A DNA stretch of 64,000 nucleotides, taken from positions 166,283 to 230,282 of the forward strand of contig NZ_CP013128.1 in the NCBI RefSeq assembly GCF_001484045.1. Direction: 5' to 3'. Positions within the stretch are counted from its first letter, which is position 1. Every line of letters starts with the position of its first letter. The notes under the pieces were generated by a model. That model saw only the letters and a list, made by a program, of their open reading frames with translations, ran no database searches and was not told where the DNA came from. Origin of the DNA: Mycoplasma sp. (ex Biomphalaria glabrata). Its GTDB lineage: Bacteria; Bacillota_I; Bacilli_A; Mycoplasmatales; GCF-1484045. Position numbers and translations under genes: made by a program. Positions 52,333 through 64,000 of the stretch are shown here, piece after piece.

Positions 52333-53337
52333 ATGAAAAAAAGAAATTATTCAAGAATCAAAAAAAGTGCGAAATTAATACCAATTTTACTAGGAACTTT
52401 TAGTGCAAGTGCACTTTTTTTAGCAGGATGCTCAAGTGAACAAAAAAAGGCACTTGGTTATAACTGAACTAACGTGACTTCATGATCTGATTTTACAAAC
52501 ATTTTTAATAGACAACCCAAAGACGGGGACCAAAGTAAAGCGATAAACGGTTTCTTATTGTACATCGGAACTTCCTCATGTCCTTATTGTCGTGCAGACC
52601 GTGATGTTAGTGAAGACGATATGGATAATTTTTTAACTGAATCAGATAAAAATAGCACAGATTGAACACAAAAATACTTAGATTCTTACCCTCAAGGTAA
52701 TGGAACTTTAAATGACTTGGCAAAACAATATCAAACATATTCTATTTTTATTGATGGTTTTAATATCGAAGATTCAAATGGTTTTGAAGGTGGTATTGAT
52801 ACTCCAACAAGTCCATGATATTGATTATATAACTTAAAACAAAATAGCTTAGATTGAACATTCGATAAAACTAATCATAAATATTCATGAAGTGCTATAA
52901 CTCCACCATCTACCCCACCAACAGATAATGAAAAAAGAGGTTGAATGACGCACAAGGATGGAGATAATCAAACGGGAAGTTATGTAACAATGAATGACTT
53001 ATATTGATCAGCTTCTAGCCCTGATTCATCAGTTAAATGACCAACAACGTGAAATAAAACTGCTCCAAGTGATGGAAAATATTACCAACATTGACCAATG
53101 CTATTATTTATTAATCGTGCAAACCCTGATGAACCTTTTAATGTAAAGGCAATTACAACAGGTTATTATAAAGAAAATCAAATTACGGCTCTAAAAACTC
53201 AACAAAATATATATCTCGATAAGCCAATTAGTCCTTATTCAAGCAATTTAGAGAAGAAAACAACCATTAATGCTGTTGAAAATAGTTACAACATTGAACA
53301 AAACCTAAATTGTATAGATAAAAATAAAAGACCTTAA
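52333..53337 (+). CDS. Lipoprotein with thioredoxin-like CPYC motif
   Basis: A 334-residue exported lipoprotein. A basic N-region and hydrophobic core end in the lipobox ALFLAGC with the lipidated Cys at 33. At residues 71-88 INGFLLYIGTSSCPYCRAD looks like a thioredoxin-fold active site: hydrophobic strand then CPYC (83-86). The following part is unusually rich in Trp (mostly TGA), Asp, Ser and Pro. A run of six G (52322-52327) replaces a normal ribosome site six nt upstream. It ends tail to tail with the Cys-rich gene, sharing four bases. A surface thiol-disulfide or thioredoxin-like role is inferred; no partner such as DsbD is seen. Confidence 0.78.
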
Positions 53338-53348
53338 TGGTCTTTTTT
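53326..53348. terminator. Bidirectional terminator between the lipoprotein and Cys-rich genes
   Basis: AAAAGACC (53326-53333) pairs with GGTCTTTT (53339-53346) around TTAAT, followed by T on the plus side and A on the other. It overlaps both stop codons. Confidence 0.85.
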
Positions 53349-53807
53349 ATTTTTCATTTTAAGAGCGGTCAAAGGAATAACATTTTCCACTAACTTCTTT
53401 TGAATAAAGTCTCGCTTACTAATACGATGTGGGATTGAACAATTACTACAATCTTTAATATTTTCATCTATAATTCGAAAATTTCCACCACAATCCTTCC
53501 CTAGCATGTAAAGTGGGCAATAGCAAAATAAACAATTAAAATCGTCTAAATCTATTTCTTCATGGCAAGGAAAAAACGGACATTCGAAATTTTGGACATA
53601 CTTGTAATGATCATTATCACCAACTTTTTGGCTAATAATTACATCAATTTTTTCTTTAGACTTTGCTCCGCCCTTACAACAATCTAGTTTTGAACAAGCA
53701 ACAGAATCTTGGTTTTGACAACCGCAACTTGAATCACAATTGCAAGAATTTTCTTGTTTGGAACAATTTTTTGTAATGCACGAAGCACAACCATTTTTAT
53801 TTTTCAT
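53334..53807 (-). CDS. Cysteine-rich protein with PF04071-like domain
   Basis: A 157-residue protein with two Cys-rich parts. Residues 7-44 hold ten Cys in CxC, CxxC and CC patterns, like a metallothionein. The second, from about residue 69, matches the cysteine-rich small domain: HYKYVQNFECPFFPCHEE, NCLFCYCPLYMLGKDCGG, and CSNCSIPHR. That domain occurs mostly in anaerobic archaea and clostridia, with unknown role, and probably binds metal or Fe-S. It is rare in mollicutes to my knowledge. It has no Trp. Strong candidate for horizontal acquisition. It is convergent with the CPYC lipoprotein. Confidence 0.8.
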   Translation of the reverse strand: MKNKNGCASCITKNCSKQENSCNCDSSCGCQNQDSVACSKLDCCKGGAKSKEKIDVIISQKVGDNDHYKYVQNFECPFFPCHEEIDLDDFNCLFCYCPLYMLGKDCGGNFRIIDENIKDCSNCSIPHRISKRDFIQKKLVENVIPLTALKMKNKKDH

Positions 53808-53855: not shown

Positions 53856-54639
53856 ATGAGCAAAGAAATAATTTCACTTACAAACGACATACATGTTCTG
53901 GATGAAATAATACATAAAAAACTAAAAAAATCTATTATCAATTATTAATGTGGAACGTTCTAATAAAATTCAAAATCATTTGATTAAAAAATCCTATCCA
54001 TTATTAATTTCTTCAAAAATTGAAAATGGATACTTAATAACTGAAGGAAAATACCTTCATAATGCAAATCACATTCTATGTATGGATGAAGAAATTTTAA
54101 TTAAAACTTATAAGAAAATAGATGAACTTCATCAAATTGAAACTGAAAATTTGAATATTTTGCCATTCCATTTTTATAATGAGTGATTTGAAATGGCTGA
54201 TGGTATAAAAAATATGTGAATCCCTTTTAATCAGTACTTAGATTGAATTAGAAATTTTCATAACCGATATTTTAAAACATCTAATTTAGTTATTTGTCAT
54301 AATGACTTGCATCCAGGTAATATATTGATTGATCAAGACATACAAGAAAACATTTATCTTATTGATTGAGATTTCGCTATATATAGTGATTTATATATGG
54401 ATTATGCCAGCGTGATTGTTGAAAATTTATTAGCTTGCCCGATTGGTATGGAAACTTTTCTAAAATACAATAAGAAATTACACTTAAACGAATATAAAAT
54501 GAATTGCTTCATTCGTTATCAAGTTCTATACTGATTAGCGTGAGCCAATCTTTGCTACGAAAAAACATTAGAGATAAAATATAAGGAAATTTTTCAACTA
54601 TTTCAAAGATTTTTTAGCCTTTTCAGTTATGACGATTAG
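53856..54639 (+). CDS. Choline/ethanolamine kinase-like phosphotransferase, apparent frameshift near 53924
   Basis: A LicA/APH-type kinase. The N-terminal piece from ATG 53856 (MSKEIISLTNDIHVLDEII) ends at a stop after 30 codons. The main part, from about 53926 in another frame, carries INVERSNKIQNHLIKKSY, then YLITEGKYL, the catalytic loop VICHNDLHPGNILID and the metal motif LIDWDFAIY. Removing one base in the run of seven A at 53924-53930 joins SLTN (usual N-terminal glycine-rich/SLTN motif) to the rest. The catalytic half is intact. If the break is real, the N lobe is lost and translation might begin at GTG 53950. Several Trp are TGA. Substrate not resolved. Confidence 0.72.
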
Positions 54640-58546: not shown

Positions 58547-58620
58547 TGGAGCAGGTGAAGGGAATCGAACCCTCACAGTCAGCTTGGAAGGCTGAAGTTC
58601 TACCATTAAACTACACCTGC
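58547..58620 (-). tRNA. tRNA-Gly (anticodon TCC)
   Basis: 74 nt on the minus strand, with encoded CCA, TTCGATTC T loop and anticodon loop CTTCCAA. Acceptor GCAGGTG pairs with the 3' arm CACCTGC. Confidence 0.95.
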
Positions 58621-58623
58621 AAA

Positions 58624-58712
58624 TGGTGCCCAAAGCCGGACTCGAACCGGCACGAGAGGTAAGTCTCGAGGGATTTTAAGTCCCTTGCGTCTACCTATTC
58701 CGCCACTTGGGC
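58624..58712 (-). tRNA. tRNA-Leu (anticodon TAA)
   Basis: 89 nt with a long variable arm, GTTCGAGTC T loop, encoded CCA and anticodon loop CTTAAAA. Confidence 0.95.
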
Positions 58713-58715
58713 AAT

Positions 58716-58790
58716 TGGTGTCCCCGAAAGGACTCGAACCTTCGGCCCATTGATTAAAAGTCAATTGCTCTACCACTGAGCTACGAGGAC
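58716..58790 (-). tRNA. tRNA-Lys (anticodon TTT)
   Basis: 75 nt, acceptor GTCCTCG, anticodon loop CTTTTAA, encoded CCA. Confidence 0.95.
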
Positions 58791-58796
58791 AAAATA

Positions 58797-58871
58797 TGGC
58801 TGGGGAGATTGGATTTGAACCAATGCATGAAGGAGTCAAAGTCCTTTGCCTTACCGCTTGGCTACACCCCA
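58797..58871 (-). tRNA. tRNA-Gln (anticodon TTG)
   Basis: 75 nt, acceptor TGGGGTG, anticodon loop CTTTGAC, GTTCAAATC T loop, encoded CCA. Confidence 0.94.
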
Positions 58872-58873
58872 AT

Positions 58874-58957
58874 TGGTGGAGGGAGAGGGATTCGAACCCC
58901 CGAACCGAAAGGAATTGAGTTACAGTCAACCGCGTTTGGCCACTTCGCTATCCCTCC
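58874..58957 (-). tRNA. tRNA-Tyr (anticodon GTA)
   Basis: 84 nt, class II with a variable arm, anticodon loop CTGTAAC, encoded CCA, acceptor GGAGGGA. Confidence 0.95.
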
Positions 58958-58965
58958 AAAAAAAA

Positions 58966-59042
58966 TGGTGCTGACTAAAAGAATCGAACTTTCAACCTAC
59001 TGATTACAAGTCAGTTGCTCTGCCTGGTTGAGCTAAGCCAGC
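58966..59042 (-). tRNA. tRNA-Thr (anticodon TGT)
   Basis: 77 nt, anticodon loop CTTGTAA, acceptor GCTGGCT pairing AGTCAGC with a G-T pair, encoded CCA. Confidence 0.94.
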
Positions 59043-59045
59043 TAA

Positions 59046-59121
59046 TGGTGGATTGTATAGGGCTCGAACCTACGACCTGATGCTTGTAAGGCACCTGCTC
59101 TCCCAACTGAGCTAACAATCC
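59046..59121 (-). tRNA. tRNA-Val (anticodon TAC)
   Basis: 76 nt, anticodon loop CTTACAA, acceptor GGATTGT, encoded CCA. First tRNA of the array; the 72 nt upstream to pgi hold AT-rich -10-like sequences but no clear promoter. Confidence 0.95.
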
Positions 59122-60809: not shown

Positions 60810-60870
60810 ATCAATAATTATTGTATATTAAAAGTAAAAAAAATGAGAAAAATTTTGAGTGATAAGAAAA

Positions 60871-61095
60871 ATGAAAATTGAAGATAAAATAACAAAAACT
60901 TTAGATAAAATTCGTCCATTCCTTGCACAGGATGGCGGAGGTGTTGAATTTATTAAATTTGAAGATGGAATCGTCTATGTTAAATTACTTGGGGCTTGTT
61001 CTAATTGTCAATTTAAAGATACAACTATTAGAGATAGTATTGAGGACTTGTTAATTGAAGAAGTATTAGGAGTTATTGGAGTTCAAGAAATTTAA
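60871..61095 (+). CDS. NifU-like C-terminal domain scaffold (Nfu)
   Basis: A 74-residue Nfu-type protein. IRPFLAQDGGGVEFIKFEDG and LGACSNCQFKDTTIRDSIE carry the CxxC that holds or transfers a [4Fe-4S] cluster. It ends GVIGVQEI. It fits the Suf genes 1-3 kb away. The ATG at 60871 was used. Its last 23 bases overlap fthC, which converges on it. Confidence 0.93.
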   Translation: MKIEDKITKTLDKIRPFLAQDGGGVEFIKFEDGIVYVKLLGACSNCQFKDTTIRDSIEDLLIEEVLGVIGVQEI

Positions 61096-61636
61096 TTATT
61101 TCTTTCTCGGTCACGATGTAATCTAATTTAACATCATGAGGTTCGGACGGAATATCAATAGTTTCTTGGAATGAATAAGCTAAACCGATTTTAATGCAGT
61201 TTTTTTCATATCTATTTAAATATCTATCGTAGTAACCTTTCCCAAAACCAATCCGATTCATTTTTCTATCAAATGCTACCAATGGAATAATGAAATATTC
61301 AATTCCATCAACCATTCCGCTTAATGGATCTGTATATTTCAAATCAAGAGAAGAAATCGGTTTAAATACTTTTTCAAAAATCATGTCGCCATGATCTAAA
61401 ACGCGTGGCGTATATAAAACAGATTTATTTTCTTCTTTTAATCAATGTGCTAAATGTTGAACATTTACCTCGTTTGTTATTGGTTTATAAATACCGATGC
61501 GTGAATTTGGCGTAATTATTTCAGAAATAATTAAACGCTCACAAATTTGATAACTCAATTTTTCAACCGCAGTTGCATACATCCTTTTTCGTAAATCTAA
61601 TTTTTCTTTTCTAATTTCATCTTTTGAAATACTCAT
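61073..61636 (-). CDS. 5-formyltetrahydrofolate cyclo-ligase family
   Basis: A 187-residue enzyme making 5,10-methenyl-THF from 5-formyl-THF. RKEKLDLRKRM (N-terminal basic helix), YKPITNEVNV, PLVAFDRKMNRIGFGKGYYDRYL (the GxGxGYYDR signature) and YSFQETIDIPSEPHDVKLDYI are typical. TGA-Trp occurs in HWLKEEN. The ATG overlaps nothing but starts 2 nt after sufB. Its 3' end overlaps nfu. Folate use fits formyl-Met initiation. Confidence 0.93.
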
Positions 61637-61637
61637 A

Positions 61638-63038
61638 TTAACCAATACTTCCTTCCATATCTAATTTAATTAGTTGATTCAATTCAACACTATATTCCAT
61701 TGGTAATTCCTTAGAAAAAGTTTCTAAAAAACCAAGTGTAATCATTTTAATAGCCTCTTGTTTCGAAATTCCTCTACTAGTCAAATAATATATTTCTTCT
61801 TCATTTAATTCATAAACTTTTGCTTCATGATCAATTTTTGAATCGCTAGAATTGCATACATTAACCGGGATTGTACTAGATCTAGAAATATTATCCAATA
61901 AGAGAGTGTCACAACTTGATTTTGCATCAGCATTCTTAACATTTTTACTAATAAATATTTTTCCGCGATAATTTACTTCACCCCCGTTGTAAGAAATGGA
62001 TTTTGATATTATGTTGCTCTTAGTATTATTTGCTAAATGAATCATTCTAGCGCCTGTGTCTTGAATTATTGTATTTTTTTTAGCGATTGCGATAGATAAT
62101 GTGTAACCTTTTGCATATTCGCCAGCTAAAATACATGAGGGATATTTCATATTTATGTGAGCACCGATGTTTCCATCTATTCACTCCATCAATCCATTTT
62201 CGTAAACAAATGCACGCTTTGTCACTAAATTGATAACATTGTCACTTCAATTTTGAATTGTTGTATAACGAACTTTTGCATTTTTATGAACAATAATTTC
62301 AACAACAGCTGCGTGCAACAAATCATTTTGATACGTTGGCGCTGTGCAACCTTCAATATAGTGAAGTTCTGAATTTTCATCAGCAATTATTAATGTCCTT
62401 TCGAATTGACCCATGTTTTTGGCATTAATACGGAAATATGATTGCAATGGTTTCGATAATTTTACATTTTTTGGAATATAAATAAACGATCCTCCACTTC
62501 AAAATGCAGTATTTAGTGCAGAATACTTATTATCGCCACTTGGAACAATTGATGCAAAATGTTGTTTAAATAAATCGGGGTAATTTTTTAAAGCCGAATC
62601 TGTGTCTGTAAATATTACTCCTAATTCTTCAAGTTCCTTTTCTAATTTATGATAAACTACTTCACTTTCATATTGTGTAGACACTCCGGCTAAAAATTCT
62701 TTTTCCGCATCTATTATTCCAACTCTATTAAAAGTTTCCTTAATTACTTTTGGAATTTTTTTTCAATCATTTTCTGGTTTTTGTGTCGACTTAATGTAAT
62801 AAGTATAATTATCAAAATTAATATACTTTTTTAAATTTGGTCCCCATTTTGGATTATCGATTTTTTTAAATTCATCAAATGATTTTAATCTCAAAGTAGT
62901 CATTCAACTTGGTTCATTTTTTAAAAGAGATATTTCTTTTACTAAATCTCTAGAAATGCCTTTTTTAACTTCTATAAAAGATTTAACATTATCAGAAAAA
63001 CCATATTTATATTCATTATTAATTGCTTTTTTACTCAT
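61638..63038 (-). CDS. sufB: Fe-S cluster assembly scaffold protein SufB
   Basis: A 466-residue Suf[63 protein letters not shown] (cluster Cys region), [28 protein letters not shown]-like and [21 protein letters not shown] cover the family. The CTAP Cys is a known key residue. Several TGA-Trp codons. It overlaps sufU by eight bases. No sufC or sufD lies within the window; they would be expected upstream of sufS beyond base 64000. Confidence 0.95.
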
Positions 63039-63447
63039 TAATCATTTCCTTAATTAAATTAATTCCTAAAGTTGCACAATTAACACGGCTAGGTTGACGA
63101 TTAACATTTTTAAAAGCTATTAATTCGTTTAGTTCATCTTCATTAAATTCTTTACCTTTAATCATATTTAAATAATTTTCAATAATTTTATTCGCTTCAA
63201 GAACTGTTTTGCCTTTAATTTCTTGAATCATTATGTCTGTTGAAGATGTACATATCGCACATGCAATTCCAATAAAACCAATTTTCTTTATAGTATTATT
63301 TTCTAAAACTAACCCTATCGTAATGTCGTCTATACATGTTGGTGAATTATATCTTTTAATTTTTCAAGATGAATCAATACTTTTAAATTGTGGGTTATTA
63401 TAATGATCCATTATTATTTGACGTAGCATTGTTTCATTTAAATTCAT
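63031..63447 (-). CDS. sufU: SufU sulfur-transfer scaffold
   Basis: A 138-residue SufU. DHYNNPQFK, NSPTCIDDITIGL (Cys with Asp), GIACAICTSSTDIM (Cys) and VNCATLGINLIKEM (Cys) give the Cys-Asp-Cys-Cys zinc site of the SufU type; SufU takes sulfur from SufS. The 8-nt overlap with sufB and 15-nt spacing from sufS suggest one operon. A TGA-Trp is near SSWKIKRY. Confidence 0.94.
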
Positions 63448-63462
63448 GTTAAATTCCTTTTC

Positions 63463-64000
63463 TTAAAAAAATGCATCTAGGCAATCTCCTAAATTTTTTA
63501 ATGCATTAATAAATGTATCTATTTCTTTTTTAGTGTTATAAATGCTTAATGATAAACGAATTGTTGATTTGGGAATTAGTTTATCTCCTAACAATTTTAC
63601 ACAATGTTGCCCTGCTCGAACGCAAATATTTTTTGTTCCTAATTGCATTGCCACATCTTCTGCAAATAATTTTTCAACCTCAAAAATAATAATTGGAAGA
63701 TCTGCTTTTGGATTATAAACCATAACGTTAGGCATATTTTGCAGTTTCCTTAAACAATAATGATGTAGTTCCATTTCGTATGCATTAATAGATTTTAAAT
63801 TTAGAGATTCAAAAAATTGTACACATGCATGAAATCCAAATATACCACTTAAGTTAATGGTTCCAATTTCAAATTTTGAAGGAGATTCATCTTTCAATGT
63901 GTAATAACCACTCTCTTCAATAATATGATTATTACCTCCCCCCAACAATAAAGGTTCGGTATTAATTTGAATATTTCTAGTCATGTATAGAGCACCTATA
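63463..64000 (-). CDS. sufS: Cysteine desulfurase SufS (partial, N-terminus beyond window)
   Basis: C-terminal 178 residues of a class II cysteine desulfurase, open to the window edge. INTEPLLLGGGNNHIIEESG, PSKFEIGTINLSGIFGF (family FExGTxN), and VRAGQHCVKLLGDKL with the active Cys (RAGxHC) are seen. It ends with NLGDCLDAFF. It provides persulfide sulfur for SufU/SufB. The PLP lysine lies outside. Confidence 0.94.
   Translation of the reverse strand, partial: IGALYMTRNIQINTEPLLLGGGNNHIIEESGYYTLKDESPSKFEIGTINLSGIFGFHACVQFFESLNLKSINAYEMELHHYCLRKLQNMPNVMVYNPKADLPIIIFEVEKLFAEDVAMQLGTKNICVRAGQHCVKLLGDKLIPKSTIRLSLSIYNTKKEIDTFINALKNLGDCLDAFF

Follow-up and report, generated by a model that had tools for sequence, protein, structure and literature searches.

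A PF04071-domain protein with a cysteine-rich tail in a mollicute, and its possible role in corrinoid use

A small gene of the mollicute Mycoplasma sp. (ex Biomphalaria glabrata) encodes a protein in which an orphan, cysteine-rich N-terminal tail is fused to a conserved PF04071 domain. The reading that we favour, with a probability of roughly 0.4, is that this protein is an acquired accessory factor for corrinoid use that bears a metal or cluster, with the class II ribonucleotide reductase NrdJ as its client and the Cys-rich tail as a metal or thiol arm. To our knowledge, PF04071, a small cysteine-rich domain that Pfam names zf-like, has no assigned function. In the literature searched, which leaves out most subscription journals, there was neither a paper naming PF04071 by accession nor a statement on the family or its link to B12.

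The gene lies within the window (the whole stretch of DNA that was analysed, 64,000 nucleotides) and is present in a single copy in the genome, which consists of one contig of 647,830 bases read with genetic code 4. The coordinates of its features are collected in Table 1.

Table 1. Features of the PF04071 gene and its 3ˊ end, in positions of the window
Feature	Coordinates	Strand	Basis
Full CDS of 157 aa with TAA stop, joining the Cys-rich N-terminus to the PF04071 domain	53334..53807	-	ORF and profile match
Orphan N-terminal extension, residues 1-66	53610..53807	-	No match in Pfam, PDB, own genome, relatives or viral contigs
Ten-Cys stretch, residues 7-44; CxxC, two CxC, one CC	53676..53789	-	Cys count
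PF04071 zf-like domain, residues 67-143; 8 Cys and 2 conserved His	53379..53609	-	E 2.1e-23
Terminator-like hairpin, bidirectional	53326..53346	no strand	z = -3.2

The protein contains 18 Cys among its 157 residues. Ten of these are found in the tail (positions 7, 10, 15, 22, 24, 28, 30, 38, 43 and 44), exactly where an earlier note on this DNA had placed them, and the remaining eight are in the C-terminal part (positions 76, 81, 92, 95, 97, 106, 120 and 123). The Cys-rich feature is real and non-random: given the Cys frequency of the long ORFs in the window (1.2%), at least ten Cys in 38 residues have P ~2e-11 per position, and the remaining long ORFs of the window reach at most four in a stretch of this length. 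The third-position G+C of the N-terminal part is 0.17, as is typical of coding sequence, and the remaining two minus-strand frames across it are interrupted by stops. No ATG, GTG or TTG start was found between codon 1 and the PF04071 domain.

A lipoprotein gene with a CPYC motif (52333-53337, plus strand) is convergent with the PF04071 gene, as the earlier note had also described. The two overlap by 4 bases and share the terminator-like hairpin. Against PedC/BrcD disulfide isomerases, the lipoprotein scores only weakly and below threshold (E 0.003); it possibly adopts a thioredoxin fold. The other neighbour is a kinase-like gene, and no cobalamin gene is linked to the PF04071 gene in this genome. 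On the kinase side, a 30-residue ORF (53856-53948, plus strand) stops one base ahead of a choline/thiamine-kinase-like ORF (53950-54639, plus strand) that is in a different frame and apparently lacks most of its N-lobe, and a frameshift or a decayed kinase is possible across 53856-54639. Further along, the window contains an array of seven tRNA genes (58547-59121, minus strand) and a region (60859-63984) carrying Fe-S assembly genes for NifU-like and SufB proteins, as well as a minus-strand gene that is likely SufS and a plus-strand ORF that is likely of the Nfu type.

The assignment of a PF04071-type domain fused to the Cys-rich N-terminus, proposed from the sequence by the earlier note, is borne out by a profile score of 82.5 bits versus a cut-off of 27. 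The domain, which includes the motifs ECPFFPCHEE and CLFCYCPL, retains every family-invariant Cys and His in the pattern C-x4-CH, CxxCxC, C, CxxC, H, yielding C76, C81, H82, C92, C95, C97, C106, C120, C123 and H127 as candidate ligands. In an alignment of 111 members, the invariant positions (in the numbering of this protein) are C76, P80, C81, H82, C92, C95, C97, P98, C106, K118, C120, C123 and H127. Of these, the eight Cys and two His probably form bound metal or cluster sites. Domain identity to most PF04071 members is approximately 40-55%, and AlphaFold models the domain with a pLDDT of ~90. A search of NCBIfam with the whole protein gave no match, and neither sequence nor fold searches returned a convincing solved relative of the domain. 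A weak PDB match of the protein to factor IX EGF modules was rejected as a chance similarity driven by Cys.

Free-standing PF04071 members in Clostridia, Fusobacteriota and Bacilli consist of the same whole domain with all of the invariant ligands. However, they typically span 80-115 amino acids and lack any N-terminal extension, whereas the protein from this mollicute carries a Cys-rich tail of 66 residues. The tail gave no match in Pfam at E 5, in the PDB, in the rest of its own genome, in 146 genomes of the order set or in viral contigs, and AlphaFold assigns it no confident fold (pLDDT ~44-58). One tail match in a sampled genome (G134) was dismissed because the aligned region contains stops and the E value is 0.13. 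Apparent N-terminal matches at five other loci (L019, L064 and L099-L101) were traced to upstream frames devoid of Cys clusters, to a fusion with corrin methylase and to the tail of the overlapping reductase. No close relative in the sample carries the tail, and it is therefore lineage-specific on this sampling. The description of the N-terminus as metallothionein-like holds for its composition, since the tail has the high Cys content, the CxC, CxxC and CC motifs, the small size and the lack of a confident predicted fold seen in metallothioneins. It does not hold for family membership, and the likeness is one of resemblance only. Unlike metallothioneins, the tail is without a family match and is joined to a conserved domain.

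Single-sequence scans of genome and viral contigs with the protein gave no match, and so an alignment was used as the query instead; whole-genome statements rest on family searches. At least 564 candidate stretches of the genome collection encode PF04071 relatives. The best 80 are mainly from Clostridia, with others from Fusobacteriota, Bacteroidota, Spirochaetota and further groups, and no Cys-rich extension is present in those of the 80 that were inspected. Any relative sharing the tail would be expected to rank first in such a search. The claim that the family occurs mainly in strict anaerobes fits its presence in Clostridia, Fusobacteriota and some Bacteroidota, but PF04071 is also found in Cereibacter. 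Among mollicutes, no other genome has the domain in a sample of 148 from the order Mycoplasmatales. The single weak match (G038) was dismissed, as it runs antisense to rplA, which encodes ribosomal protein L1. In the sample of the class (395 genomes), ten other genomes encode PF04071 proteins, which are all short and free of the tail. In the domain tree, the branch of the mollicute domain is long (1.17), and no donor is singled out. For a domain with a long branch and no counterpart elsewhere in the sampled order, horizontal acquisition is the simplest reading.

The strongest clue to what PF04071 may do is provided by its fusions in other organisms. Seven loci (L020, L023, L024, L036, L043, L063 and L064) document recurrent fusion of the domain to cobalamin enzymes in anaerobes. 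The observed architectures are zf-CbiG, CbiC-zf-CobT, zf-CobT-CobU, ABC ATPase-zf-CobT, histidine phosphatase-zf and corrin methylase-zf, in which the domain is the same as the one described here, whereas in the mollicute it is fused to an orphan tail rather than to an enzyme. Free-standing PF04071 genes also reside within annotated cob/cbi operons of Sulfurospirillum and Lachnospira, such that the family as a whole is found both fused to and in operons with cobalamin genes. In one Bacilli genome, CobS and a CobU-like gene are found nearby, and at several other Bacilli loci neither a cobalamin gene nor a reductase is evident next to the domain. With the proteins of one operon as bait, a cob/cbi-like gene was detected within 8 kb at 14 of 80 genome loci, two of which rest on a single weak bait. 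At a locus from Ilyobacter (L014, 4741-5943), a gene for a glutaredoxin-thioredoxin reductase fusion is followed by the PF04071 gene, and such a fusion gene is likewise found near the PF04071 gene of a Fusobacteriaceae relative (L051).

The viral neighbourhoods are a second, independent link between PF04071 and B12. A ribonucleotide reductase lies within 6 kb or two genes of PF04071 at 35 of 64 viral loci, corresponding to 20 of 41 sequence clusters. At the 20 viral loci recovered by the reductase search, both genes are always on the same strand, and most overlap or are separated by no more than 120 bp. Every viral reductase beside PF04071 that was typed (12 of 12) belongs to the B12-dependent class II, and these enzymes cover two subclasses, the diphosphate reductase NrdJ and the triphosphate reductase RTPR. 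That two different subclasses are accompanied by the same small neighbour argues for B12 as their common factor, and not for some property of a single enzyme. In the opposite direction the link is weaker, with PF04071 adjoining only three to four of 27 viral NrdJ-type loci in one reverse scan.

The mollicute genome, too, relies on a reductase of this class. A search with PF02867 detected one ribonucleotide reductase, a class II NrdJ (NF005991, 1280 bits) that bears a CPLC...GGCxxCxxC tail, and thus a B12-dependent enzyme is present in the same genome as the PF04071 protein. Its gene is located outside the window, at ~384.3-386.9 kb (L163, 901-3426). It is therefore separated by ~165 kb from the PF04071 gene at ~220 kb, whereas the viral counterparts adjoin. 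Searches of the genome for a PF02310 domain, a cobalamin riboswitch and adenosyltransferases of the PduO and CobA types found none, which suggests that the organism probably imports adenosylcobalamin. Within the class, NrdJ is enriched among genomes with PF04071 (7 of 11 versus 94 of 384; p = 0.008, not corrected for phylogeny). In the same sample, NrdJ is present in a minority of the genomes of the order, and most of them show only a sub-threshold reductase match or no match. Many genomes of the order carry NrdJ and no PF04071 (for example G025, G051, G060 and G066), and consequently the PF04071 protein is not required for the enzyme and would be an optional helper at most.

These observations suggest a mechanism in which the PF04071 domain, through its fixed putative metal ligands, would act on a corrinoid by holding it, reducing it or passing it on. 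As the only reductase detected in the genome, NrdJ is the most likely client. The flexible arm with its ten Cys may bind a metal or supply thiols, and in this way could load the domain core or the corrinoid client, or keep it reduced. Extended to the family, and here we are more tentative, PF04071 might be an unrecognised corrinoid-handling accessory domain that assists synthesis in organisms that make B12 and the class II reductase in viruses and in this mollicute, where the protein itself would include a Cys-rich arm for metal or thiols.

The function put forward in the earlier note was metal or Fe-S sequestration. On a reading of this kind, the protein would be a metallothionein-like buffer for metal, sulfide or Fe-S, with thiolate-bound metal in both halves. 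The abundance of Cys and its CxC, CxxC and CC spacing are consistent with this role, as are the disorder of the tail in the structural model, which is also expected of an unloaded metallothionein, and the SUF genes elsewhere in the window. However, searches with the tail returned no metallothionein family or structure, and the other half, the domain, is strictly conserved and associates with B12 enzymes, not with metal-resistance genes. Because the partners of PF04071 are cobalamin genes and class II reductases, which the earlier note did not take into account, the evidence points away from plain sequestration, and we retain it as an unlikely rival. Rather unlikely, in our view, is a role for PF04071 as an electron donor or thiol reductant that regenerates the C-terminal Cys pair of the class II reductase with electrons from a thioredoxin-reductase-like system. 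This would account for the direct adjacency to both reductase subclasses in viruses, and for the glutaredoxin-thioredoxin reductase fusions at the Ilyobacter and Fusobacteriaceae loci, but would leave the fusions to CbiG, CbiC, CobT and corrin methylase unexplained. Moreover, the domain has no thioredoxin-like fold or PDB match.

Two further explanations deny a function to part or all of the protein. The tail could be outside the working protein, either because translation starts internally or because the tail was added recently, and without a function, to an otherwise normal PF04071 protein. Its uniqueness to this genome and its lack of structure would fit, as would the fact that the usual family members begin right before the domain. 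The missing internal start codon, the coding-type third positions and the improbable clustering of ten Cys argue against it, and make this explanation improbable. It is more improbable still that the gene was acquired and retained without any function. The gene is alone in its order within the sample and its domain is on a long branch, but all of the family-invariant ligands are intact, and in a genome of 648 kb a useless gene would be prone to decay.

The role in corrinoid use that we prefer draws on the viral class II reductase neighbourhood and the cobalamin-enzyme fusions, which together provide a direct and testable hypothesis for PF04071. This link to B12 and class II reductases is a more useful result than the metallothionein label. 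If the hypothesis is true, some viruses would bring their own helper for B12-dependent synthesis of DNA precursors, and such a helper would also have been acquired by a bacterium that lacks a wall and has a tiny genome.
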